Positions 3,187 to 47,418 of a stretch of DNA of 49,593 nt are shown here, in pieces. The notes beneath the pieces were generated by a model, which ran no database searches, had not been told where the DNA came from, and was given only the letters and a program-made list of their open reading frames with translations. This DNA comes from Flavobacteriales bacterium. Its GTDB lineage: Bacteria; Bacteroidota; Bacteroidia; Flavobacteriales_D; Sanyastnellaceae. Within the stretch, counting starts at the first letter, position 1; every line of letters starts with the position of its first letter. Both the position numbers and the translations under genes were made by a program. The stretch is taken from assembly GCA_002683345.1 (NCBI GenBank), contig NYSX01000040.1, forward strand, positions 1 to 49,593, written 5' to 3'.

Positions 3187-3450
3187 ATGGATACGCCGGA
3201 TCATTCGCATCAGACCCTTCGCGCCTTGTGGTGGCGGCATGGAGGATTGGGCTGCTTGCTGATTGGGGCAGGCCTGTCGGTGACGTTGGACACCTCAGCC
3301 CAGCGCGTTGCAGGAGAAGCATGGTGGCTTTGGGTCCTGGAGGGAACGCTCGGCCTCGTGATTTTCATGAGTGGTCTCGGCTTTTTTGGGAGTTCCGTGC
3401 GCTATCTGGTGCTGATGAACCTTGCAGAAAAAGAAGGCGGTCAGTCCTGA
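3187..3450 (+). CDS. Small two-helix membrane protein, unknown
   Basis: 87-aa protein of unrecognised family. Two hydrophobic segments are visible (GCLLIGAGLSVTL, about 20-35; LWVLEGTLGLVIFMSGLGFF, about 46-66), followed by a short polar tail (NLAEKEGGQS). The ATG at 3187 (MDTPDHSHQ) is preferred over an in-frame ATG at 3160 (or 3148) that would add unconserved-looking residues close to the upstream terminator. The 3' end overlaps the convergent redoxin gene by 10 bases. It is probably an inner-membrane protein; no function can be assigned. Confidence 0.55.
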   Translation: MDTPDHSHQTLRALWWRHGGLGCLLIGAGLSVTLDTSAQRVAGEAWWLWVLEGTLGLVIFMSGLGFFGSSVRYLVLMNLAEKEGGQS

Positions 3451-3905
3451 GGGGCTGTCGGGCGTACCCCTTCGATGGGGCATCCCACGGCGTCCGTCAC
3501 GGGGGTTGAGACGGCGCGCCCGGCCAGGCAATCGCGCAGCGCAGCATCGAGGTCGCGCCGCTTGGTCTTGGGTTTTCGCTTTCCAGGGGCGAAGTAGCGG
3601 TCGTTGATGCGGCCTCGATACACCACCGAATCGGCCGCATCGAGGACAAAGACTTCTGGGGTCCATCTGGCGCCCAAGGCCTCTGCCCAATGCGCGGTAT
3701 CCTTGCCCATGGTCATGTTGAGGTCGTAGGTCTGCTGGAAGGCGGCGATTTGGGCCTCGGTGGTCGAAGCGTTGGGGAACACGCCCACAAATTCCACGGG
3801 TTCGCCGGCAAAGTCCTTCTCCAGCTGACGCAGGTCGAAGGACATGTTTTGGCAAATCGGACAGAGTGGGGCCAAAAAAATCAAGACGCGCCAGACGGGT
3901 TCCAT
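3441..3905 (-). CDS. Redoxin/thioredoxin-fold protein with CPIC motif
   Basis: 154-aa thioredoxin-fold protein of the redoxin type. The CxxC site is CPIC (residues 15-18) within FLAPLCPICQNM, followed by PVEFVGVFPNAS, the cis-Pro region ARWTPEVFVLD and VVYRGRINDRYF. A C-terminal VGCPIEG adds a further Cys. There is no clear cleavable signal; the N-terminus (VWRVLIFLAP) is the first strand of the fold. The gene lies 10 bases after the cytochrome c/PHM-like gene on the same strand, and a -7-like element sits 4 nt before its ATG, so it may be both co-transcribed and separately started. Redoxins with this tail are, as I recall, found with or fused to copper-monooxygenase-like proteins in other phyla, so a role in redox or copper maturation of the upstream product is a reasonable inference. 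Confidence 0.75.
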   Translation of the reverse strand: MEPVWRVLIFLAPLCPICQNMSFDLRQLEKDFAGEPVEFVGVFPNASTTEAQIAAFQQTYDLNMTMGKDTAHWAEALGARWTPEVFVLDAADSVVYRGRINDRYFAPGKRKPKTKRRDLDAALRDCLAGRAVSTPVTDAVGCPIEGVRPTAPQD

Positions 3906-3909
3906 GGGA

Positions 3910-3917
3910 CAAAGGTC
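3910..3917 (-). promoter_or_regulatory. -7-like element GACCTTTG, 4 nt before redoxin ATG
   Basis: GACCTTTG on the minus strand, a one-base variant of TAnnTTTG, lies 4 nt before the ATG at 3905 and overlaps the stop of the upstream gene. It fits leaderless transcription. Confidence 0.45.
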
Positions 3918-5373
3918 AACAAGGTTCGCCGAACGCGCTCAGCAGTTGCAAGAGGTCCGCAATCGTGACGGCGTCGTCAAGGTCGACGTCTGCATTGCAG
4001 TCCGTCACGCACCCAAAGTCGGACAACAGGTACAGCATGTCTTCCACACTCACCACGCCGTCGCCCGTGAGGTCACCCACACAGGGGACGTCGTCGGAGG
4101 GGCCGAGGGCAATGAGCTCGTCGCCTTCCTCGTAAAGGACATAGTCGAAGAAGACGAAGAACATCTCGTCGGTGGTGCCTTCGCCGAACGTGACGTTTTG
4201 GGGTGGATCATTGGGGTTGAATGGGTTCGCACTTGTGTTGTCGTAAGACGCGATGCCATGAAGCGTGTAGCCCGCGGGGATCTTGGTCAGCGTGGGGAAC
4301 GTGAAGAAGCCCTGCCAGTTGAAATCCCATGATGGAATGGAGATCAGCGGGATGGTGTCTTGGTTGTTCGGCGAGGTCGCAAACACCTCCCAAGAGACGC
4401 CGATGAGGTGGCAGTGTGGAGCCACGCTGAGCAAACTCAGGTCGGCGGCCACGTCCATGGTGCCGTGAAACGTGCGCTCTTGGTTGGCGGGGAGGAAAAA
4501 GAACTGGTCCAAATGTTGAGGCCCCATGATGCCCGTTTCCACCTCGCGCTCAATGGGTTCCTCTGCAAAAAACACATTCACTTCTGTGAGGTCGGTTTCC
4601 TCAATGGGTGAGGGCCCGTAGTGCATTTGGAGCAGGAGATCGGCCCCTGCGGGAATGACACGTCCAATGCCGGGAGGATACTCGAGTGTCAAAGCCCCAG
4701 GGACCCATGCGCCAAAGAAGTTGCTCTCTGCGGAGAAGCCAAAGCCGCCGAAACTCTCGTACCCAGGTTCGGGGTCCTGCGCATCGAGATTAACCGCCGT
4801 GCCGGTCACATCCAACCCCAAGATGGCGTGGTGCGACACCGTGCGGTTGCCGGGCCGGACTTCAAGGGCGCGAATGGCGAGGTCGTTGTCCGGATCTGCA
4901 GGAAGCACAAACACCTGGTACTGGTCCGTCATGTCGCCACCGTGGGTATAAGGTTCTGCCATGGGCATCACCATGTCGGGTGCTCCGATTTGGCTGCCTT
5001 CAGGGAAAGACGGGATGCCGGGGTTGTCCGCGGGATTGCCTTCCGGTTTGCCTGCCGCCACCCATGCGCTCAGGGTGGCCTTCTCGTCGTCGGTCAACAC
5101 GCGCTCTCCGACAAAATGTGAGTAGGTGTCGTCGGGCGTCCAGGGGGGCATGTAGTCGGTGGCGGTCACGTACTCGATGAACTCTCCATAGACAAAGACC
5201 TCGTCGTAGGTGGTCAGAGGCATGGGCCCGATTTCTCCCACGCGATGGCACTCGGTGCAATGCGCGTAGATGATGGGTGCCACGTCGGCATGGAAAGTGA
5301 CGCTTTGGGCTTGACCGACGAAAGAGGAGCCAAGCAACGTGCTGAGCAACAAAGGAGTGGACCACCGTATCAT
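3916..5373 (-). CDS. Secreted cytochrome c/PHM-like copper monooxygenase, dockerin-like tail
   Basis: 485-aa exported protein. A signal peptide (residues 1-27) is followed by a cytochrome-like haem site CTECH (Cys39, Cys42, His43). A domain resembling copper type II ascorbate-dependent monooxygenases (PHM/DBH) comes next. All copper ligands of PHM have visible counterparts: HH in TVSHHAILG, H in LLQMHYGPS, HxH in APHCHLIG, and the Met in GTTDEMFFVFF. The C-terminal 55 residues are two Asp-rich dockerin/EF-hand-like repeats (DLTGDGVVSVEDML, then DVDLDDAVTIADLL), each ending FG.xC. The start at 5373 is set by the signal peptide and a TACCTTGA element 5 nt upstream; an ATG at 5403 would lie upstream of that element. 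The protein is probably periplasmic or extracellular. The substrate is unknown. Its paralogue is at 12847-14448. Confidence 0.8.
   Translation of the reverse strand: MIRWSTPLLLSTLLGSSFVGQAQSVTFHADVAPIIYAHCTECHRVGEIGPMPLTTYDEVFVYGEFIEYVTATDYMPPWTPDDTYSHFVGERVLTDDEKATLSAWVAAGKPEGNPADNPGIPSFPEGSQIGAPDMVMPMAEPYTHGGDMTDQYQVFVLPADPDNDLAIRALEVRPGNRTVSHHAILGLDVTGTAVNLDAQDPEPGYESFGGFGFSAESNFFGAWVPGALTLEYPPGIGRVIPAGADLLLQMHYGPSPIEETDLTEVNVFFAEEPIEREVETGIMGPQHLDQFFFLPANQERTFHGTMDVAADLSLLSVAPHCHLIGVSWEVFATSPNNQDTIPLISIPSWDFNWQGFFTFPTLTKIPAGYTLHGIASYDNTSANPFNPNDPPQNVTFGEGTTDEMFFVFFDYVLYEEGDELIALGPSDDVPCVGDLTGDGVVSVEDMLYLLSDFGCVTDCNADVDLDDAVTIADLLQLLSAFGEPC
3919..4083 (-). other. Dockerin/EF-hand-like C-terminal tail
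   Basis: Region encoding the last 55 residues of the copper monooxygenase-like protein. Two Asp-rich loops are each followed by a hydrophobic helix ending FG, with paired Cys between them (FGCVTDC). A near-identical architecture closes the metalloprotease at 44230-47418. Confidence 0.6.
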
Positions 5374-5386: not shown

Positions 5387-5414
5387 GGCAAAGCACATGA
5401 CATGCCGAAAACAG

Positions 5415-9634: not shown

Positions 9635-10182
9635 TTGGCGGGCGCAAGGTGGGGGTGTTCGCGGCCATGAGCTTGGACGGGCACCTTGCCGAGCCCAACG
9701 ATGGGCTGGATTTTTTGGCCAGTGTTCAACGTGAAGACGAAGATTATGGCTACATGGCTTTTGCCAGCCGCGTTGTCGGATACGTAGTGGGAAGGCGCAC
9801 GTTTGACGTGGTGACTGAATTGTGTGGCGGGCAGTTTCCCCATGCCGGCAAGTGGCCCATTTACGTGGTGACGTCCACGGCATCCGACCGTTCTGACATG
9901 GACGGCGTGACTTTTGGTTCCTTGGAAAACCTCGCGTCTTGGCTTGAAGCAAACACGCCTGAGACCCAAGGTGACGGCATCATATGGTGCGACGGAGGAG
10001 GTCAGCTCATTTCGGCGTTGTCAGACCAAATCGACGAGTGGACACTCAGTGTGGTGCCAACGCTTCTCGGGGCGGGAATCCCATTGTTCCGGGAGGGCCG
10101 GCCTTCGGTGCGTCTTCTAGCTGTGGGAGCGGCCTCTTACGATTCAGGACTCATTCAACTTCGGTATACCCTCGCACCTTAA
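9631..10182 (+). CDS. RibD C-terminal/DHFR-like reductase
   Basis: 183-aa cytoplasmic protein of the dihydrofolate reductase-like/RibD C-terminal fold. Visible signatures are KVGVFAAMSLDGHLAEPNDGLDFL at the N-terminus, YVVGRRTFDVV (NADPH-binding loop region), KWPIYVVTS, IIWCDGGGQLISALSDQ and the closing PTLLGAGIPLF. It is probably an NADPH-dependent reductase of a pterin-like or other small substrate; the substrate is not known. The ATG at 9631 overlaps the TGA of the peptidase gene. The 3' end overlaps the convergent PNGase F-like gene by four bases. Confidence 0.85.
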
Positions 10183-11375
10183 CGCGCTTGGATCTCGAGC
10201 CAGCCAGCGAGGTTCCAAAAGTTGAATTCCTCTTCTGTCCAGCGCTGGGCACCCGGCACGGCGACGGTCAGGGTGTGATGGCCTGCGTCGAGGTGACCGA
10301 GTGAAATGCGGCGCGGCTTGACCTGATCGCCAGGGCACCAGTTTGATCGGCTCAAGTCAGACGACGCCACGCGCTCCTCCAACGTGTCTCCACCCAATAC
10401 ATAGGTGGAAGGCCAGAATCCGCTCGTAGGGTTGAACCGACGGAAGGCGCCACAGTCATTACGCCAAGGGGTCCAAGCATCGACCGTGTCGCCATCCATC
10501 ATCACAATGTGGGGTTGCTCGGTGAATTCGTCTCCACCGGCGTGCCCACCGTGCCCGGTGGTCAAGAACAAGAGGTCCACGTCGGTGGCATGCTCGAGCT
10601 CAAAAGACACCTTCAACGCCGTGTCGGGGAGTTGGGTGAAGGGCCTTTGGTCGTGGGCCAGTTTGGTGGTGTTGAACAGGGGAGAGATGGCATGTGAAGG
10701 TGCCCAATCGCAAGGCAGTTCGCTTTCCCGCATGTCCAGCCTTGCCGACAAGGCATAGCCCTCGGCCGTCCAGGTGTCGATGTAGGCGCCCACCCAGATC
10801 GTGTCGGCGCCGGACATCCAAGGTTGGAGAGAAGACAGGTCGGCTTGCCACGAGGCACTGTCGGCCCACGCCGCCACAGCCTCCGGTCGGTAGGCATTGG
10901 CGCGCTCGGTGTGGCTGAAATGCCCCACGCCAAAGGGAGTGATGAACCGCATCCATTCCAAGGCCGGAAGACGGTCGCCCTCACGAACGATGCCTGCAAA
11001 CTGCGTGGTGTCCGCGTCGTCGCCCTCGAGCATGCGTTCCAGGTAGTCTCGGCCCGCGTCGTCCGCCAAGGCGAAGAGCGTGCCGCTCTTGTCCCACGGG
11101 TCGCCGGCCGAAGTGACGGAGACGTCAAGACGCACTTCGCACCTTCGCGCGTGGTCGGGCACAACAACGGGCTTGAGGAGGATGCGTCCGGCATCGAGGC
11201 GGTAGGTGCCGTCCTCGAGTTGAACCGAATCGGGGTCGATGCCCGGCGTGAACTTCACCGCAGCCTTGTGCCAAATGTCCACGTGATGTGACCCCACAGA
11301 CGGGGCATGTCCGGATTGACACCCTACCCATCCGAGCACGGCGAGTGCAACACCAACAAGCATCTCCTTCTTCAT
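10179..11375 (-). CDS. PNGase F-like lipoprotein (peptide-N-glycanase fold)
   Basis: 398-aa predicted lipoprotein (signal MKKEMLVGVALAVLGWVGC) resembling peptide:N-glycosidase F, which releases N-glycans from asparagine on glycoproteins. The first jelly-roll (about 30-215) contains RCEVRLDVSVTS and DPWDKSGTLF, a candidate for the catalytic Asp region. The second (about 225-398) contains FLTTGHGGHAGGDEF, MMDGDTVDAWTPWRNDCG, NPTSGFWPST and the diagnostic LSRSNWCPGDQVKP, ending in FNFWNLAGWLEIQ. The ATG at 11375 is set by the lipobox and a GACCTTGG element 4 nt upstream. An alternative is a PNGase F-domain protein without glycanase activity; confirming the catalytic residues needs an alignment. 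The call rests on the C-terminal motif. Confidence 0.75.
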   Translation of the reverse strand: MKKEMLVGVALAVLGWVGCQSGHAPSVGSHHVDIWHKAAVKFTPGIDPDSVQLEDGTYRLDAGRILLKPVVVPDHARRCEVRLDVSVTSAGDPWDKSGTLFALADDAGRDYLERMLEGDDADTTQFAGIVREGDRLPALEWMRFITPFGVGHFSHTERANAYRPEAVAAWADSASWQADLSSLQPWMSGADTIWVGAYIDTWTAEGYALSARLDMRESELPCDWAPSHAISPLFNTTKLAHDQRPFTQLPDTALKVSFELEHATDVDLLFLTTGHGGHAGGDEFTEQPHIVMMDGDTVDAWTPWRNDCGAFRRFNPTSGFWPSTYVLGGDTLEERVASSDLSRSNWCPGDQVKPRRISLGHLDAGHHTLTVAVPGAQRWTEEEFNFWNLAGWLEIQAR

Positions 11376-11379
11376 GAAA

Positions 11380-11387
11380 CCAAGGTC
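11380..11387 (-). promoter_or_regulatory. -7-like element GACCTTGG, 4 nt before ATG at 11375
   Basis: GACCTTGG on the minus strand lies 4 nt before the start of the PNGase F-like gene. Confidence 0.4.
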
Positions 11388-12231: not shown

Positions 12232-12768
12232 TTACGGGGTGGAGGTCAACCGGTCCACCAACGTCACCATGCGTGCAAATTCGTCTTCGTCAAACAGCCG
12301 TGTAAGCATGGCAATGCGGCCGTCAGAATTCACCACAACATTTCGGGTCACGCCTGACTTTGGGGCGGCAATGCTGTAGAAGACCGTCCCGTTTTCGTCG
12401 GGACACATGGGGTAAGAGACGCCCATTTGCGAGGCAAACGCGGCCACTTTGTCCCGTGGTTCATTCAGGTCGACCCCCAACAATGTAAAGTTGCGGTCGC
12501 GAAAGGGTTGCCATACTTCAGCTTCGAGGTGCGGCATTTCTTTCCGGCACACGCTGCACCACGACGCGGTGAATTGCAGAATGTAGGTTTGACCGAGCAG
12601 GGATTGGTCGTTGTACGTTTGGCCGTTCACGTCCGTCAACGAAAAGCTTGGAACGGTGTCGCCCACCTGAACGATGTACCCTCGGGCATCCGGCGTTTGA
12701 GCCGTCAAGAGGGGAGGGAAGCACAGGGCGGCGACCACGAGGGCAAAGCGAGGGAAGGCAAGTCTCAT
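12232..12768 (-). CDS. TlpA/ResA-like secreted thioredoxin-fold protein
   Basis: 178-aa exported thiol-disulfide oxidoreductase. A signal peptide (MRLAFPRFALVVAALCFPPLLTAQ) precedes an AhpC/Redoxin-like domain: VGDTVPSFSLTDVNGQTYN, then LQFTASWCSVCRKEMPHLEAE with the CSVC active site (Cys73, Cys76), VDLNEPRDKVAAFA, and SGVTRNVVVNSDGRI around the cis-Pro region (no Pro directly visible). Proteins of this type reduce or mature periplasmic disulfides and cytochromes. The gene is divergent from the second cytochrome c/PHM-like gene, 78 bases apart. A CATCTTTG element lies 5 nt before the ATG; longer upstream readings run through the divergent gene and are rejected. Confidence 0.88.
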   Translation of the reverse strand: MRLAFPRFALVVAALCFPPLLTAQTPDARGYIVQVGDTVPSFSLTDVNGQTYNDQSLLGQTYILQFTASWCSVCRKEMPHLEAEVWQPFRDRNFTLLGVDLNEPRDKVAAFASQMGVSYPMCPDENGTVFYSIAAPKSGVTRNVVVNSDGRIAMLTRLFDEDEFARMVTLVDRLTSTP

Positions 12769-12773
12769 GGTTG

Positions 12774-12781
12774 CAAAGATG
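12774..12781 (-). promoter_or_regulatory. -7-like element CATCTTTG, 5 nt before ATG at 12768
   Basis: CATCTTTG on the minus strand lies 5 nt before the TlpA-like start, forming one half of a divergent promoter pair with 12835-12842. Confidence 0.5.
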
Positions 12782-12834
12782 GGTTGCAGAACACGCACGG
12801 CTGGCCAAAAGTTGAACCGCGTTTCATTCTGGGG

Positions 12835-12846: not shown

Positions 12847-14448
12847 ATGAACATGATGCAACAGACCTTGGTGATCGCAGCCCTGGGCTTGGCCGCCGTG
12901 CCGCGCCTTCAGGCACAGACGGTTACGTTTCACGAAGACATCGCTCCGCTGATTTACTCGCAATGCACGGAGTGTCATCGAGAGGGTGAAATCGCTCCCA
13001 TGCCCTTCACCACGTACGAGGAGGTAGCTGCGTTTGGCACCTTCATCGAGTACGTCACGCAGACGAACTACATGCCCCCGTGGACTCCTGATCACAACTA
13101 CAGCTCCCTTCGTGGCGAACGTTTTTTGACCGACGACCAAAAGGCGTTGATCAGCGCATGGGTCGAGCAGGGGATGCCTGAAGGCGATCCCGCCAACAAT
13201 CCAGGGTTGCCCGATTTCCCTGAAGGAAGCCAAATCGGCGAGCCAGACCTCGTGTTGAGCATGCCAGAACCCTTCACGCATTTGGGCAACATGCAAGACC
13301 AGTATCAGGTCTTTGTCATTCCGACAGGATTCACGGAACCCACCGAGATTGCCGCTGTGGAAATCCGTCCCGGCAACAGTGCGGTCGACCATCATGCCTT
13401 GATCGGATACACGGACAATCCTTCCGTGATTGCCCAGGCCCAGTCCATGGACGCCGCCGATCCCAACCCGGGCTACGAGAGCTTCGGGGATTACGGCGTG
13501 GATGTGGAGCAATTCTTGTTTGGTGGGTGGGTGCCTGGCACGCCGCCGCTCGAATTTCCGCCCACCATCGGCCACGTCGCCGAACCTGGGAGCCACCTGT
13601 TGCTCCAAATGCACTACGGCCCCTCAGCCGTGGAGCAGGTAGACCAAACCGAGATCAACCTCTTCTTCGCCCAAGAGCCGATCCAGCGCGAGGTGGAAAC
13701 GTACATCATGAATCCGGAGCACCTCGATGGCGGTTGGGGATCATTCATCATCCCGCCCAACCAGGTCACCACGTTCCACGGCTCCATGCCCATTCCCGAA
13801 GACATGAGCCTCATCAGCATCACACCACACTGTCACTTGTTGGGCAAAGCGTGGGAGGTGTTTGCTCGGTCTCAGGATGCCCAAGACACCATTCCGCTGA
13901 TTTCCATCCCAGACTGGGATTTCAATTGGCAGGGGATTTTCACCTACCCCCAAATGGTGCACTTGCCGGCGGGCTACATTTTGGAAGCGTACAGCACCTA
14001 CGACAACACGGCTGACAATCCATTCAACCCCAACGATCCGCCTGAAACCATGTGGTGGGGTGACTTCACCACGGAGGAGATGTTTGTCCTCTTTTTGCAA
14101 GGGGTGCCCTACGAAGAGGGGGATGAAGACATTGTCCTCTCCACCCCAGACCAAAACACCATGGTCGTCTACCAACACGACAACCTCTTCCCGGCGTGGC
14201 CCAACCCTGTGGTCCAAGGAGAGGTCAAAGTGGGCTTCCACTTGCGTCAAGCGGCCGAGGTGACCTTGTCGCTCTACGATCTTCAGGGACGACAAGTGCA
14301 GTCATGGCTTACCGCGTCAAGCCGCCCCGCCGGAAGGCATCTCGAGTCTTTTTCTGTGGACGGCTTGACTGCAGGAACGTACGTCTATCAACTGCGTACG
14401 TCCACGGGGACGGTGCGAAGTGCCCAGCTTCAGGTGCTCGGACAGTGA
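12847..14448 (+). CDS. Secreted cytochrome c/PHM-like copper monooxygenase with T9SS tail
   Basis: 533-aa paralogue of the protein at 3916-5373. The signal peptide ends near LQAQ (residue 21). The haem site is CTECH (Cys40, Cys43, His44) in a closely similar context (APLIYSQCTECHREGEIAPM). Copper ligands correspond to HH in VDHHALIG, H in LLQMHYGPS, HxH in TPHCHLLGKAWEV, and Met in TTEEMFVLFL. The C-terminus is a type A T9SS sorting domain (AWPNPVVQGEV, VTLSLYDLQGRQV, GLTAGTYVYQL), so the protein is exported across the outer membrane by type IX secretion, unlike its paralogue with a dockerin-like tail. It starts at 12847, just after a promoter-like element, divergent from the TlpA-like gene. 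Oxygenase chemistry is inferred from the fold; the substrate is unknown. Confidence 0.83.
   Translation: MNMMQQTLVIAALGLAAVPRLQAQTVTFHEDIAPLIYSQCTECHREGEIAPMPFTTYEEVAAFGTFIEYVTQTNYMPPWTPDHNYSSLRGERFLTDDQKALISAWVEQGMPEGDPANNPGLPDFPEGSQIGEPDLVLSMPEPFTHLGNMQDQYQVFVIPTGFTEPTEIAAVEIRPGNSAVDHHALIGYTDNPSVIAQAQSMDAADPNPGYESFGDYGVDVEQFLFGGWVPGTPPLEFPPTIGHVAEPGSHLLLQMHYGPSAVEQVDQTEINLFFAQEPIQREVETYIMNPEHLDGGWGSFIIPPNQVTTFHGSMPIPEDMSLISITPHCHLLGKAWEVFARSQDAQDTIPLISIPDWDFNWQGIFTYPQMVHLPAGYILEAYSTYDNTADNPFNPNDPPETMWWGDFTTEEMFVLFLQGVPYEEGDEDIVLSTPDQNTMVVYQHDNLFPAWPNPVVQGEVKVGFHLRQAAEVTLSLYDLQGRQVQSWLTASSRPAGRHLESFSVDGLTAGTYVYQLRTSTGTVRSAQLQVLGQ
14173..14445 (+). other. T9SS type A sorting domain
   Basis: Encodes about 91 C-terminal residues with the type A pattern: WPNPV opening, LSLYDLQGRQV in the middle, GLTAGTYVYQL and a short basic/hydrophobic end. 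It directs secretion by the type IX system. Confidence 0.8.
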
Positions 14449-15848: not shown

Positions 15849-16643
15849 TCAGAATCCGTCTCCGTCCACCATGCGTCCCAAGGAGCCCAACACGGACCCT
15901 TCGCCTTTGGCCGAGCCCTTGAGGGCAGGTGCGTGACGAATGACACGGTCGGCCAAGCGGCTGAAGGGCAGGGTTTGGAGGTACACCGTTCCCGTGCCGC
16001 GCAGGGTGGCGAGAAACAGTCCTTCACCGCCGAAGAACATGGATTTCAATCCTCCCGCGGCCTCAATGGCGTAGTCAATGCCAGGAGTGAACCCGACAAT
16101 GCAGCCTGTGTCCACCCGAAGGGTCTCGTTGTTCAAATGGCGCTCCACCACGGTGCCGCCCGCGTGCAAGAAGGCCAGGCCATCTCCTTCCAGTTTTTGA
16201 AGGATGAAGCCTTCGCCACCAAAGAATCCAGCGCCAATGCGCTTGGTGAAGGCAATGGACACTTTGGTTCCTTTGGCCGCGCAAAGGAACGCGTCCTTTT
16301 GGCACATGAGTGTGCCCCCACGCTTCGCCAAATCCACCGGCATGATCTTGCCGGGGTAAGGGGAGGAGAAGGCCACCCGACGCTTGGACACACCTTGGTT
16401 GGTGAAGTGGGTCATGAACAGCGACTCGCCTGTCAGCACACGCTTCCCCATGGACATCAGCCCGCCCAAAATGCCTGAGCTGGCCGCCGTTCCGTCGCCC
16501 ATCCGAGCTTCAAACGCGATGTCCGACTCCATCCAGTTCATGGCCCCGGCCTCCGCCACCACTGTCTCTTGGGGATCCAGTTCAATTTCGACGGCCTGCA
16601 GGTCGTCGCCGTAAATGGTGTAATCGATTTCGTGGCTGTTCAT
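15849..16643 (-). CDS. AIM24/TIGR00266 family protein
   Basis: 264-aa protein of the AIM24 (TIGR00266) family, a double beta-roll fold of unknown biochemical role. Diagnostic segments are [34 protein letters not shown], the [26 protein letters not shown] stretch (about 50-75), [54 protein letters not shown] and [20 protein letters not shown]. There is no signal peptide, so it is cytoplasmic. The ATG overlaps the TGA of the nitric oxide synthase gene by four bases, so the pair is translationally coupled; whether this link is functional is not known. Confidence 0.9.
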
Positions 16644-17950
16644 TTCCAGAGAGATTGAAAGGTTTTGCTGATCGTAGAAAAAGGGCAACGTTTCGGCACA
16701 TCCTCGTCTTCAAAGGCGTCCGGTGCCAGAAGGCGGTGGGTTTCCTTGGCCTTGGAGGTGAAGGTCATGCCGCTCACACTCGGTGGCGCTTGGTAGAAGT
16801 AGTTGGTGTGGGTGATGACCCCGTTGGTGAAATGCCTGTGGTATTGGGGGGTCAAACTGCCAGACATCGGCGGCGTCAACCAAGACCAATCGCCCGGCAC
16901 CTCGTGGCCTTGACGCTGCTCGGCCTGACACCATTGTTCAAACGCCCTTCCAAGTTCGTGGTGGTCGCCCACGGTGACACCGGCATTGTCAAAACTTGCG
17001 AGCAGCGCCTGATTCAGCCGCACCAGGGCCTCGTCCTGCCACAGCGCCCGCTTGGCCGAGGTGGAGATGCCGCACGCTTGCGCCCACGGCTCAAGCACGT
17101 TGTACCTGTCCGGGTCCGTCAAATTGCGGGCGGCGATTTCCGTGCCGAGGTAGTGGCCGTTGAAGGGGGCAAAAGGATAGACCACCCCGCCAATCTTCAG
17201 GGCCATGTCGGCCAAAATCGGAACGGCGTACCACCTCAAGCCCAAATCCTGCGTGGCCGGAAAATCGGGGTGGGAGATGATGACTTCGTGGGGCAGAAGC
17301 GCTCCGTTTTTGAAGACATCTCTGGGAGGCAGGGCCTTGCCGTGTTGGACCATGACCCAAGGAAGGGGCGTCCAAGGCGTCTTGGGTGCGTCCCAGCCTT
17401 GCTTGAGGCAATAGCTGGTGAAGTCAACGCTGTCGGGGTCGCCCAACACCGTTCCGTCGGACTGGGTGAATCCGGCATACCGAATCAGCTGGTGGTTGGC
17501 CATGCGCCAGGGCACATCCTCACTGCTCTGCGCTTGGGGAAAGATGGTGATGACATTGGTGATCTTTCCCCCGTTGAAGGCGGTATTGACGTGGCGCTCC
17601 AAATGGGCGTAAGCCTCTTCCGCCGTCTTACAATTCCGTGCGTCATGCACTTGGAGCGTGCGCCAAAAGTGCCGTCCAATGCATCGGTTGGAATTCCTCC
17701 AAGCGAGCTTTGCTCCGAATTGCAACTCTCTCTTGCTGTGATTGTAAGTACCTTTCTCCTCAATCTCAGATTCAACCTGCCTCCAGCGCAATGCAAGGTC
17801 CGGCACCCAAGCGCTCGCCACCGAGTCAGCGGCCATGGCGTCCAAGAAGGCCCGGGCTTCTTTTTTCAATTGCGCCATGCCTTTCACACCCGCAAAAGGC
17901 GAGATGGGGTCCAAGTGAAAGGGGGAGGATTGTGCGCCTGAAAGATTCAC
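16640..17950 (-). CDS. nos: Bacterial nitric oxide synthase oxygenase domain
   Basis: 436-aa haem enzyme (412 aa if started at ATG 17878) converting L-arginine to citrulline and NO using partner reductases, as no reductase domain is fused. The haem ligand is Cys90 in [10 protein letters not shown]. Further signatures are [39 protein letters not shown] with the substrate Glu271, [27 protein letters not shown] and GDWSWLTPP (pterin/dimer region). The motif usually written FNGWYMGTEI is [10 protein letters not shown] here, so the tryptophan is His266. The C-terminus has about 50 extra residues. A GTG at 17950 sits 4 nt after a TACCTTCA element and is used as start; ATG 17878 aligns better with the short N-terminus of Bacillus NOS. 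Confidence 0.9.
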
Positions 17951-17954
17951 AGGG

Positions 17955-17962
17955 TGAAGGTA
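17955..17962 (-). promoter_or_regulatory. -7-like element TACCTTCA, 4 nt before GTG at 17950
   Basis: TACCTTCA on the minus strand; the first in-frame start-like codon is a GTG 4 nt downstream, the spacing seen at many other genes here. This decides the NOS start tentatively and argues against the ATG at 18010. Confidence 0.5.
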
Positions 17963-17994
17963 CGTGTTCCATTGCAGCAACAGGGGGCATTCAC

Positions 17995-18002
17995 GACCTT
18001 TG
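17995..18002 (+). promoter_or_regulatory. -7-like element GACCTTTG, 6 nt before ATG at 18009
   Basis: GACCTTTG lies 6 nt before the rluF start, in the divergent region shared with NOS. Confidence 0.4.
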
Positions 18003-18008
18003 GCATCC

Positions 18009-18740
18009 ATGAGCGACGCAGCACCACAGGGAACCCGAATCAACAAGTACCTCAGTGAGGTGGGCCATTGCTCGCGCCGGGCGGCGGACGCCTTGTTAGA
18101 GCAAGGACGAATCACCATCAATGGCGTGGTCCCCGAAATGGGCACCCGCGTGCAGCCTGGCGATCGCGTGGCGGTGGACGGGGTGGAAGTGGCCACCAGC
18201 GACCAAGAGCGCATTGTCATCGCCTATCACAAGCCTGTGGGCATCGTGTGCACCACCGACACGCGCCGTGAGAAAGACAACATCATCGACGCCATCAATT
18301 TTCCGACCCGCATCTATCCCATCGGGCGCTTGGACAAGATGAGCGAGGGGTTGATTTTCCTCACCAACGACGGCGACATCGTCAACGACATCCTCCGCGC
18401 CCGTTATGGCCACGAGAAGGAATACCACGTCACCGTCAACGGCCCCATCACGCCCGAGTTTGTGCAGAAGATGTCTTCAGGGGTGGCCATTTTGGACACC
18501 GTGACCATGCCCTGCGAGGTGGAAGCCACGGGGTCACAATCCTTCAAAATCATTTTGAAGCAGGGGCTCAATCGCCAGATTCGTCGCATGTGCGAGGAGT
18601 TGGGCTACCGAGTTCGACGCCTGAAGCGCGTGCGCATCATGAACGTCGAACTCGGAGATTTGCCCGTGGGCACCTACCGTCCCTTGGACGATTTGGAGAT
18701 GCGCAAGCTGCGTGCGCTCACCCAGGGTGCCAAGTCTTGA
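18009..18740 (+). CDS. rluF: 23S rRNA pseudouridine synthase RluF
   Basis: 243-aa RNA-modifying enzyme of the RsuA/RluB/E/F family. An S4 RNA-binding domain (RINKYLSEVGHCSRRAADAL, about 10-65) precedes the catalytic domain with the Asp motif IYPIGRLDKMSEGLIFLTND and the C-terminal KQGLNRQIRRMCEELGYRV, LKRVRIMNVELGDLPVG. The combination HEKEYHVTV plus RIMNV resembles RluF (U2604 of 23S rRNA in E. coli) more than RluB or RluE. The ATG at 18009 (MSDAAPQGT) is preceded by a promoter-like element. A short inverted repeat (CCTCC/GGAGG, 18743-18760) follows the stop, too weak to call a terminator. Confidence 0.88.
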   Translation: MSDAAPQGTRINKYLSEVGHCSRRAADALLEQGRITINGVVPEMGTRVQPGDRVAVDGVEVATSDQERIVIAYHKPVGIVCTTDTRREKDNIIDAINFPTRIYPIGRLDKMSEGLIFLTNDGDIVNDILRARYGHEKEYHVTVNGPITPEFVQKMSSGVAILDTVTMPCEVEATGSQSFKIILKQGLNRQIRRMCEELGYRVRRLKRVRIMNVELGDLPVGTYRPLDDLEMRKLRALTQGAKS

Positions 18741-43871: not shown

Positions 43872-44201
43872 ATGGAGGACAGCAACAAGAAATACGCCGC
43901 GTTTTTGACGCGTTTGCAAGAGGAATTGATGACGGCCGCAACCCAACATTCAGTGGCCTGGCGGTTCGGCAATTGGACCGCCCGTCAGCGCCTGTTGTTG
44001 GTTCACGAACGATTGTTGCGCGACGTTCGAAAGAACCTGCAGCGGCTCAACAACCACGTTTTGAAAGAGTCCCCCGAATTCAGGCGGGCCTTTGGCGCTG
44101 AATTCCAGCGCTGGGCCAATCAACTTCCTGATCCGGCCAAAGAGCAGTTGTCCCTTTTGAAGGAATACACAGAAGTGTTTGCCGAACCCAAGCGTCGGTG
44201 A
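43872..44201 (+). CDS. Small basic cytosolic protein, unknown
   Basis: 109-aa protein with no signal peptide and no recognised domain. It is helical, Arg/Gln-rich (LLLVHERLLRDVRKNLQRLN) and contains FRRAFGAEFQRWANQLP. Its ATG has one of the few Shine-Dalgarno-like stretches in the window, AAAGGAGAGG 5 bases upstream, which sets the start. It precedes the metalloprotease gene by 28 bases and could be co-transcribed, but no functional link is visible. Confidence 0.6.
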   Translation: MEDSNKKYAAFLTRLQEELMTAATQHSVAWRFGNWTARQRLLLVHERLLRDVRKNLQRLNNHVLKESPEFRRAFGAEFQRWANQLPDPAKEQLSLLKEYTEVFAEPKRR

Positions 44202-44229
44202 GGCCTTCTCAACCCAAAACCACTCCCGA

Positions 44230-47200
44230 ATGAAACATTGTCAACGCCTTCTGTCGCGTTTCGCGACCACTGCATGTTTGTTGGCCACGGCTGGCCTCTC
44301 TTTCGCTCAAGGTTCTTTTTGGTCGACGCCCCGGAACACTCGGACCGATGCGCCCACCACAGAGGTGGCAGAGTACCGCGCATTTCAGGTGGACGTGGCG
44401 TCTTTGGAATCTTGGTTGAGCGAGGTTCCCACGGGCAAGGCCTTCGAGGCGTCGCGATCGTCCTGGATTTTGGAATTGCCCATGCCCGACGGGGAGATGG
44501 AGCGCTTCTCCGTGCTCAACAGTCCTGTGATGGCTCCTGCATTGGCTGCGCGTTATCCCGAGATTCAGGTGTTTGCGGGGCAAGGGGTGGATTCTCCAGA
44601 AGCCACTGTGCGCTTTGACATGACGCCCCAAGGGTTCCACGCCATGATTTTGAAGGAAGGGGAGACCGTGTACATCGACCCCTATCACCCCGGGATTCGC
44701 GACGAAGTCATTGTCTACACCCGCACAGCGTTTTACCGTACGACCTCCAAGCAGGTCGAGGGTTGCATGGCGCTGGAGGTGCCTCAAAGCACTTCACCCA
44801 AAACGGGCCCCACGGTTGGTTCTGGAAAGGAAGTCAAGGTCATGGGGCGCCCCACAATCGCCACCAACCGTGCAGACAACGGCTCGCAACTGAGAACCTA
44901 CCGACTGGCGTTGGCGTGCACGGGGGAATACGCCCAATTCCACGGAGGAACTGTGTCCAGTGTCCTGGCGGCGATGAACACCTCCATGGCACGGGTCAAC
45001 GGCATTTTTGAGCGGGACGTGTGTTTGACCATGGAATTGGTCCCCAACAACGATCAGCTTGTGTTTTTGAACTCAGGAAGCGATCCGTACACCAACAGCA
45101 ACGGTGGCAGCATGTTGTCCCAAAACATCAACACCTGCAACAGCGTCATCGGTTCTGCCAACTACGACATCGGTCACGTGTTCTCCACGGGGGGCGGCGG
45201 CGTGGCCTACCTGCAGTCTCCTTGCGGAGGAAGCAAGGCAGGCGGAGTCACCGGCCAAGGGGCCCCGGTCGGCGATCCCTTTGACGTGGATTATGTGGCA
45301 CACGAGATGGGGCACCAGTACGGGGGGAATCACACCCAAAACAACAGCTGCAACCGCGCCTCTTCGGCCGCTTATGAGCCAGGTTCAGCTTCGACCATCA
45401 TGGGGTATGCGGGCATTTGTGCGCCCAACTTGCAGAGCAACTCTGACGACCACTTCCACAACCACAGCATCAATGAAATGGTGGCCTTCACGGTGAATGG
45501 AAACGGCAACACGTGCGCTGTGAAAACGGCCACGGGCAACGGCATTCCCGTGGTGAATGCAGGAGTGGACGGCTTGACGATTCCCATTTCAACCCCCTTC
45601 GAGTTGACGGCGACTGGCTCGGATCCCGACGGCGATGCGGTGACGTACAACTGGGAGCAATACGATTTGGGCCCATCCACGGCTTCTGGCGACAACAACC
45701 TGACCAACCCGTCGGGCAACCAGCCCATTTTCAGGTCATTCTCGTCCACTGCTTCGCCCACGCGTACGTTCCCTCGTGCCCAAGACTTGGTGAACAACAC
45801 CACGACCATTGGAGAGCATTTGCCCACCTACAGCCGAGGGTTGAAATTCAAGTGCACCATCCGTGACAACCGAGCCGGTGGTGGTGGATTTGCGGACGAT
45901 TTGAAGTCGCTCAACGTGACGGCCGACGCAGGCCCGTTCCTTGTTCAGGCACCCAATGGAGGTGGCAGTGCGGTGGGCAACACCCAGCTGCCTGTGACCT
46001 GGGATGTGGCAGGCACCAACGGCAATGGGGTCAATTGCAGTGCGGTGGACATTTTCTTGAGCACAGATGGTGGCTACACCTTCCCGACGCTGCTTGTGGC
46101 GGGCACCCCCAACGATGGAAGTGCCTCGGTGCTTGTGCCCAATGTGACCACCGCTCAAGCGCGCATCAAGGTCAAGGCCAGCAACAACGTGTTCTTCGAC
46201 ATCAGCAACGCCAATTTCAGCATCACGCCCGGCGCGGGCGACATTGACTACGACTTGGCCATTGTCTCGGTTCAAGGGCTCGAATCGGAGTCGTGTGAGA
46301 GCGTGTTGGATCCCAAAGTTTCGGTGTTCAATGTGGGGCAGCAGGCCGTCACAGCATTCTCAGTGTCTCTTTCGTTTGACGGCGCGGCCCCGCTGGTGGT
46401 CAATTGGACAGGAAGCTTGGCGAGCGGCGAGGGGGTGGACGTCGAATTTTGTGAGAGCGGGCCTTGTGTCGTGCTTGCCGACGGAGACCATGTGGCCAAT
46501 GTGTCCGTGCAGCTTGCAGGAGCCACCGATGAGAACCCTTCCAACGACGATTACACGGCAAACTTTACGACCGCTTCAGGGGCGGAATTGACGTGGACCA
46601 TCGTGACGGACAACTACCCTGGGGAGACCACGTGGTCCGTGACCAACGATGCCGGGTCGACCGTGTGGTCGGGCGGTCCCTACGCTGCGACAGGAACGAC
46701 CTATTCCGAATCGGTTTGTTTGCCATACGGATGTTACACGTTGACCGTGAACGACAGCTATGGAGACGGCATTTGCTGTGCCTATGGCCAGGGGTCATTT
46801 GAATTGACTTCAGGGGGGGCGGTCTTGGCTTCCGGCGGCGAGTTTGGAAGTACGACGAGCGCCAATTTCTGCCTCGACGCCCCGAGCGTGCCAGGCTGCA
46901 CGGACCCCACAGCGACCAACTACAATCCCCAGGCGACGGAGGACGACGGCTCGTGCATTGAGGCGGTCGCAGGATGCACGGACGAGAATGCGTGCAACTA
47001 CGACGCGTCAGCCAACCAGGAAGACGGGTCTTGCGAGTACCCAGCGCCAATCGTGACTTCATGCGGAACGTGTGAAGTGGATTGTGGCGGCACCTGCTTG
47101 GCGGACGCCGATTTGGACGGCATCTGCGACGCCTGTGAATGCGCCGGTTGTCAGGATGAAACGGCATGCAACTACGATGCCACTGCCACAGATCCAGGGG

Positions 47201-47418
47201 AGTGCTTTTACGCCGATCCCGGATTCAATTGCGACGGAACGCCGCTCTGCACCGAAGACCTCAACGGCAACGGAGCCGTGGAAGTGGGGGATGTGCTGCT
47301 GGTTCTTGCGGAATTTGGTTGCGAAGCGGATTGCACGACGGATTTGACAGGCGATGGCTTTGTGGCCGTGGACGATGTGTTGATTTTGCTGTCGGTCTTT
47401 GGGACGAGTTGTCAGTAA
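44230..47418 (+). CDS. Secreted reprolysin-like zinc metalloprotease with Cys-repeat and dockerin-like tail
   Basis: 1062-aa exported protease. The signal peptide ends near SFAQ (residue 27). After a propeptide-like region the zinc site is HEMGHQYGGNHT (His358, Glu359, His362, His368), with a Met-turn IMGYAG near 392, the reprolysin (M12B-like) type of HExxHxxGxxH. Ig-like domains follow (SDPDGDAVTYNW, VTWDVAGTNGNGV), then a CARDB-like region (DLAIVSVQGLESESC). Three Cys repeats of the CTDPTATNYN type (46894-47205) and a dockerin-like tail (DLNGNGAVEVGDVL, FGCEADC, DLTGDGFVAVDDVL) end the protein, with no T9SS domain visible. Probably extracellular; substrate unknown. Confidence 0.88.
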   Translation: MKHCQRLLSRFATTACLLATAGLSFAQGSFWSTPRNTRTDAPTTEVAEYRAFQVDVASLESWLSEVPTGKAFEASRSSWILELPMPDGEMERFSVLNSPVMAPALAARYPEIQVFAGQGVDSPEATVRFDMTPQGFHAMILKEGETVYIDPYHPGIRDEVIVYTRTAFYRTTSKQVEGCMALEVPQSTSPKTGPTVGSGKEVKVMGRPTIATNRADNGSQLRTYRLALACTGEYAQFHGGTVSSVLAAMNTSMARVNGIFERDVCLTMELVPNNDQLVFLNSGSDPYTNSNGGSMLSQNINTCNSVIGSANYDIGHVFSTGGGGVAYLQSPCGGSKAGGVTGQGAPVGDPFDVDYVAHEMGHQYGGNHTQNNSCNRASSAAYEPGSASTIMGYAGICAPNLQSNSDDHFHNHSINEMVAFTVNGNGNTCAVKTATGNGIPVVNAGVDGLTIPISTPFELTATGSDPDGDAVTYNWEQYDLGPSTASGDNNLTNPSGNQPIFRSFSSTASPTRTFPRAQDLVNNTTTIGEHLPTYSRGLKFKCTIRDNRAGGGGFADDLKSLNVTADAGPFLVQAPNGGGSAVGNTQLPVTWDVAGTNGNGVNCSAVDIFLSTDGGYTFPTLLVAGTPNDGSASVLVPNVTTAQARIKVKASNNVFFDISNANFSITPGAGDIDYDLAIVSVQGLESESCESVLDPKVSVFNVGQQAVTAFSVSLSFDGAAPLVVNWTGSLASGEGVDVEFCESGPCVVLADGDHVANVSVQLAGATDENPSNDDYTANFTTASGAELTWTIVTDNYPGETTWSVTNDAGSTVWSGGPYAATGTTYSESVCLPYGCYTLTVNDSYGDGICCAYGQGSFELTSGGAVLASGGEFGSTTSANFCLDAPSVPGCTDPTATNYNPQATEDDGSCIEAVAGCTDENACNYDASANQEDGSCEYPAPIVTSCGTCEVDCGGTCLADADLDGICDACECAGCQDETACNYDATATDPGECFYADPGFNCDGTPLCTEDLNGNGAVEVGDVLLVLAEFGCEADCTTDLTGDGFVAVDDVLILLSVFGTSCQ
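46894..47205 (+). repeat. Three Cys-rich GCTDxxAxNYD repeats
   Basis: Three degenerate coding repeats: CTDPTATNYNPQATEDDGSC, CTDENACNYDASANQEDGSC, CQDETACNYDATATDPGEC. They are common spacer-like units in secreted Bacteroidota proteins. Confidence 0.75.
47257..47415 (+). other. Dockerin/EF-hand-like C-terminal tail of the metalloprotease
   Basis: Encodes two Asp-rich loops with a hydrophobic helix ending FG, linked by GCEADC and closing FGTSC. It parallels 3919-4083. Confidence 0.6.

Follow-up and report, generated by a model that had tools for sequence, protein, structure and literature searches.

A predicted c-type cytochrome domain joined to a PHM/DBH-like dicopper core, with an adjoining redoxin, in a marine bacterium of the Flavobacteriales and its relatives

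Organisation of the locus

The window (the whole 49,593-nucleotide stretch of DNA analysed here) comes from a marine bacterium and carries two copies of a protein in which a haem motif precedes a PHM/DBH-like copper core, copy 1 with a redoxin gene beside it and copy 2 divergent from a second thiol-redox gene. The genes, tails and redoxin motifs are as follows.

3916..5373, minus strand: copy 1, haem plus dicopper monooxygenase-like protein, predicted to be exported (485 aa plus stop)
3919..4083, minus strand: GC-type dockerin-like tail of copy 1, residues 431-485 (NF041540, Z score of the model, genome-wide recurrence)
3441..3905, minus strand: redoxin of 154 aa (Pfam Redoxin, 3.5e-9; model fold)
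3863-3852, minus strand: CPIC motif of the redoxin (C15 invariant in an alignment of 22)
3482-3480, minus strand: C-terminal GC142 of the redoxin (Gly-Cys nearly invariant in the alignment)
12847..14448, plus strand: copy 2 of the haem-PHM protein, with a T9SS type A sorting tail (TIGR04183, 2.6e-7)
12232..12786, minus strand: ResA/TlpA-like thiol-disulfide oxidoreductase with a signal peptide and the motif WCSVC, divergent from copy 2

The coordinates and lengths that the initial annotation gave for copy 1 and the redoxin were correct, as was its placing of the redoxin start 10 bases past the stop of the enzyme; an in-frame upstream ATG at 5403 provides a 495-aa alternative for copy 1. The signal peptide of copy 1, read by eye and from the family alignment, is MIRWSTPLLLSTLLGSSFVGQAQ, and it is followed in order by the CxxCH haem domain, the PHM double jelly roll and the tail. 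This tail, absent from the earlier description, looks like a GC-type dockerin without passing the NF041540 model (3.4e-5; 24.1 bits, below the cut-off of 29), and in the structural model it matches dockerin 2y3n_B with Z 9.5. Similar dockerin-like tails occur at 23 further places in the source genome, which suggests that the tail of copy 1 is a generic sorting or anchoring element lying outside the chemistry.

Copy 2 is 61% identical to copy 1 over the core. Its T9SS tail had likewise been overlooked, and T9SS PorP-type components are present in the source genome. The divergent arrangement of copy 2 and the ResA-like gene is kept in genomes of the same genus (L089-L093, L133 and L134). Three other genes in the window deserve mention in their own right: a PNGase F family protein with both N-glycanase domains between the two haem-PHM copies (10179-11387, minus strand), a bacterial nitric oxide synthase oxygenase domain (16640-18061, minus strand; PF02898, 1e-126) and a reprolysin-like metalloprotease with a GC-type dockerin-like tail of its own (44179-47418, plus strand).

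Copper core and haem domain of copy 1

The two redox parts of copy 1 and their candidate ligands lie at the following positions.

4999..5301, minus strand: c-type cytochrome domain, residues 25-125 (family invariance; Pfam Cytochrome_CBB3 in relatives)
5259-5245, minus strand: CxxCH motif, C39xxC42H43 (CxxCH in 150/151 relatives)
5151-5140, minus strand: M75PPW, candidate sixth haem ligand (Met in 151/151 relatives)
4120..4986, minus strand: PHM/DBH-type dicopper core, residues 130-418 (profile match with ligands aligned; model fold)
4833-4828, minus strand: H181H182, candidate ligands of the CuH-equivalent site (register with PHM H107/H108)
4623-4621, minus strand: H251 of QMH251Y, candidate ligand of the CuH-equivalent site (register with PHM H172)
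4416-4408, minus strand: H320xH322 of PH320CH322, candidate ligands of the CuM-equivalent site (register with PHM H242/H244)
4164-4162, minus strand: M404 of DEM404, candidate ligand of the CuM-equivalent site (register with PHM M314)

Searched singly against Pfam, NCBIfam and the PDB, copy 1 returned its dockerin tail or nothing, and Cu2_monooxygen was not reached. The PHM match that these single-sequence searches missed was supplied by a profile from 60 relatives, which matched solved PHM structures at E 1.9e-12 with the six copper ligands in register. Among the same 60 relatives, Pfam matches at E up to 0.1 were found for Cu2_monooxygen in 34/60, Cu2_monoox_C in 43/60 and Cytochrome_CBB3 in 51/60, and one locus (L114) exceeds the Cu2_monoox_C cut-off; a Pfam Cu2_monoox_C search of the source genome was empty, a result without weight given that control genomes were equally empty.

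The AlphaFold model of copy 1 (pLDDT 90) gave, as its first 31 Foldseek matches, DBH and PHM structures throughout, and VIA realignment of residues 130-418 returned Z scores of 18-22.7 to PHM/DBH (22.7 to PHM, 21.7 to DBH), with the next unrelated folds at about 8. The structure prediction and superposition on PHM that the initial annotation had proposed thus agree in overall fold, and copy 1 belongs with the PHM/DBH enzymes by its predicted fold and by the register of its candidate ligands. Rat PHM (1phm/1sdw) shares the double jelly-roll core and the two His/Met copper sites in identical order, and the equivalent of its Q170 is kept in 117/151 family sequences, whereas identity is only about 15% and Arg240 of PHM is not conserved in the family. 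Dopamine beta-hydroxylase (4zel) shares the core fold and likewise has an additional domain N-terminal to that core; in DBH this is a DOMON domain, whereas copy 1 has a small c-type cytochrome domain, mostly helical, in that place. Unlike PHM, the family of copy 1 is bacterial and carries the c-type haem domain together with a sorting tail or a lipoprotein anchor, so that it is set apart from the PHM/DBH enzymes by the haem module, the tails and its occurrence in bacteria.

The haem domain has the sequence features of a c-type cytochrome, namely CxxCH and a candidate axial ligand, the invariant M75 of MPPW, which had not been remarked on before; the single exception to CxxCH among the 151 sequences has a gap at that position. 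Cytochrome c assembly proteins were found in 9/10 genomes of the same genus, and the missing match in the source genome assembly probably reflects its incompleteness (73% complete). A 442-aa PHM-like ORF of Nonomuraea gerenzanensis (L159:2638-3966, plus strand), apparently a lipoprotein and without an annotated gene, keeps the copper motifs and lacks CxxCH, which shows the haem domain to be a module that can be separated from the copper core.

Constraint across the family and pairing with the redoxin

A first scan of bacterial and archaeal genomes yielded 76 related loci, and the ten haem and copper residues were all invariant in 71 sequences. Because these loci had been found partly via conserved peptides, copies from whole-genome profile searches of other genomes (tandem and dispersed paralogues among them) were added, giving an enlarged set of 151 sequences from several phyla in which each copper ligand is kept in 150. 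The one exception (L139:2219-3586, minus strand), which sits in an array of six haem-PHM paralogues, has lost all six copper ligands and kept CxxCH and M75; such joint loss is what one would predict for six residues that work together as a unit. The profile match with its six aligned ligands, taken with invariance in 71/71, 90/90 and 150/151, argues that the motifs are not there by chance, and the earlier claim of a CxxCH motif joined to a PHM/DBH-like core stood up for every motif named.

The enzyme was present in 37/60 relatives of the source genome and in 12/60 genomes in a survey of another phylum, and two single genomes (G078 and G064, loci L139-L158), of which one is the Terriglobia genome that carries L038, hold expansions of about 20 or more copies. 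Carriage this wide suggests that the substrate matters to the cells concerned. Similar redoxin-haem-PHM proteins may also occur in Planctomycetes, a phylum outside the genomes sampled. No description of the bacterial haem-PHM family was found in the literature searched, outside which most subscription papers lay, so that its novelty is unproven; the family looks broad, constrained and, in that literature, undescribed.

The redoxin model (pLDDT 93) has a thioredoxin fold in which the reactive Cys stands where the first helix begins, and matches the Thermus thermophilus thioredoxin-like proteins 2cvb/2ywo over its whole length (Z 18.8 to 2ywo, 148 residues, 28% identity). Unlike them it is shorter N-terminally, where its sequence opens with the first core strand, and it has a genetic link to a copper enzyme. 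A redoxin lies beside the enzyme gene in 30 of the 76 first-survey loci, and in 13 of these it is preceded by one enzyme gene, mostly of the dockerin-tailed kind, and followed by another; the other enzyme gene of the window is about 8 kb off on the opposite strand. By manual count, the redoxin directly adjoins the enzyme on the same strand in 24 of the 37 enzyme-bearing relatives, far beyond chance given the 1-3 such redoxin matches per genome. The neighbourhood survey suggested in the initial annotation therefore found non-random pairing, which extends to fusion of redoxin, haem and PHM domains in a single frame at L101 (582 aa) and L104 (833 aa); the redoxin is adjacent and unfused at L106, L107, L108, L112 and L113. 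Mapping the redoxin label onto a tree of 129 enzymes took 8 changes, against 39 for shuffled labels, a difference to which near-copies contribute. No redoxin adjoins the enzyme in many members of the family, among them the expansions of about 20 paralogues per genome.

Three further ideas about the redoxins were tried and rejected. The in-frame TGA flagged in several redoxins and considered as selenocysteine is the natural stop; fusion of enzyme and redoxin by readthrough or frameshift in the window clade is contradicted by their differing frames and, in L019, by an intervening stop; and an association of redoxin presence with a likely C154-C207 disulfide (raw counts 2/49 vs 37/80) was unsupported once relatedness was counted.

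Electron route, substrate and role of the redoxin

PHM draws on ascorbate for one reducing equivalent per copper; O2 binds at CuM, and the two coppers keep a distance of about 11 angstroms (PMC6123673). On the strength of sequence and model, copy 1 is best read as a haem-fed, ascorbate-independent dicopper hydroxylase, and we think it reasonably probable that it is an exported, dockerin-tailed, haem-fused PHM-type monooxygenase in which c-haem would feed CuH and then CuM for hydroxylation, with the redoxin as thiol partner. Electrons from a respiratory or periplasmic donor would enter at the c-haem, pass to the CuH-equivalent copper (H181, H182, H251) and move on to the CuM-equivalent copper (H320, H322, M404), where O2 would be activated to hydroxylate a substrate other than a peptidylglycine; the haem would thereby take over the work of ascorbate in animals. 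The haem residues match the copper ligands in invariance, and the haem domain lies N-terminal to the subdomain with the candidate CuH ligands, both of which fit electron entry by haem; the idea of haem as a substitute for ascorbate fits as well.

A haem domain that regulates the copper enzyme as a redox or gas sensor, or serves as an anchor, in place of donating electrons, would also accommodate the fact that haem and copper are linked by sequence position alone, and the copper-less L139:2219-3586, in keeping its haem motif, indicates that the domain can be useful by itself. However, the invariant Met of MPPW suggests a low-spin electron-transfer haem and not a gas-binding one, and we consider this reading quite improbable. 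Less easily set aside, yet still unlikely, is a PHM-fold haem-copper protein that is no O2-dependent hydroxylase at all, acting as an H2O2-driven peroxygenase, a reductase of a small molecule such as nitrite, or an electron-transfer protein. PHM crystal entries with bound nitrite and azide exist, H2O2 is able to bypass O2 and reductant in PHM (PMC6123673), the paralogues are many and divergent, and a search of gene context for a substrate or pathway partner found none; against this, the six ligands of both sites are kept, which would be needless in a one-site reductase or a simple shuttle.

Arg240 of PHM binds the carboxylate of the substrate glycine, with roles likewise attributed to Asn316 and Tyr318. 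Copy 1 has A318 at the Arg240 position, where most relatives carry Ala, Phe, Thr, Val, Met, Gln, Tyr or Asn. This makes peptide amidation unlikely, and the positions of Asn316 and Tyr318, mostly hydrophobic or aromatic in relatives, speak against a peptidylglycine as substrate. An ordinary ascorbate-using, peptide-amidating PHM with the haem domain as bystander would share the fold and copper ligands seen here, but these substitutions, together with a haem motif that is invariant and not decaying, make it very improbable; copy 1 is thus unlikely to be of the amidating type. At 16 acidobacterial haem-PHM loci a cytochrome P450-like gene lies downstream (PF00067 for L059:7247-8611, plus strand), placing two oxygenases side by side, and upstream genes at Acidobacteriota loci read by eye like ispD and ispF; as clues to a substrate in that phylum these neighbours are suggestive only.

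For the haem-fed hydroxylase, the redoxin would be a thiol partner dedicated to the enzyme, and its most likely task would be either to act on the two cysteines of CxxCH prior to haem attachment or to assist in copper loading. The part of copy 1 that precedes the dockerin tail contains no cysteines other than those of CxxCH and C321. The redoxin is therefore unlikely to form disulfides in the copper core, which leaves the CxxCH thiols or copper loading. The earlier proposal of a thiol partner for maturation holds in part: it agrees with relatives whose redoxins would be exported, those placed upstream of the enzyme mostly having a signal peptide or lipobox, but sits less well with the few cysteines of copy 1 and with the downstream-placed redoxins of the window clade, which start at the first core strand and show no signal peptide by eye, a point previously overlooked. 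Since the enzyme is exported and these redoxins carry no visible signal, neither maturation nor electron donation is a proven role for them, and the thiol-partner part is much less certain for the window clade. A variant in which the redoxin donates electrons directly, from thiol to haem to copper, would suit the fusions at L101 and L104, where a stoichiometric role in turnover fits better than one-off maturation; yet the second Cys of CPxC is replaced in L101 (CPLS), L106 (CPIS), L124 (CPLS) and L040 (CPIA), the window redoxin again lacks a visible export signal, and we rate this variant as rather improbable. More speculatively, and on the unlikely side, some bacteria may make the entire chain from thiol through c-haem and CuH to CuM as one polypeptide and others as an operon, placed at the cell surface via T9SS or dockerin tails, for ascorbate-free C-H hydroxylation of the PHM type.

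Lytic polysaccharide monooxygenases have a different fold with a single copper site and are unrelated to PHM. Bacterial ones are nevertheless reported to be reduced by c-type cytochromes (PMC8981238), and so resemble the proposed enzyme in drawing their electrons from such a haem protein. In a structural survey PHM is assigned to eukaryotes and PNGase F, which is related to it in fold and falls in the same Pfam clan, to bacteria (PMC8812541).

The relatives of copy 1 in many bacteria point to an unstudied copper enzyme family whose electrons probably come from haem and not from vitamin C. Textbooks treat PHM and DBH as eukaryotic enzymes, and animals amidate peptides and make noradrenaline with this two-copper core. 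A large bacterial family with both copper sites and a built-in haem would offer a simple system for the electron route to CuH, and would bear as well on how two coppers about 11 angstroms apart share electrons, and nature already supplies controls in the redoxin fusions and in the paralogue that lost its copper ligands but kept the haem motif.
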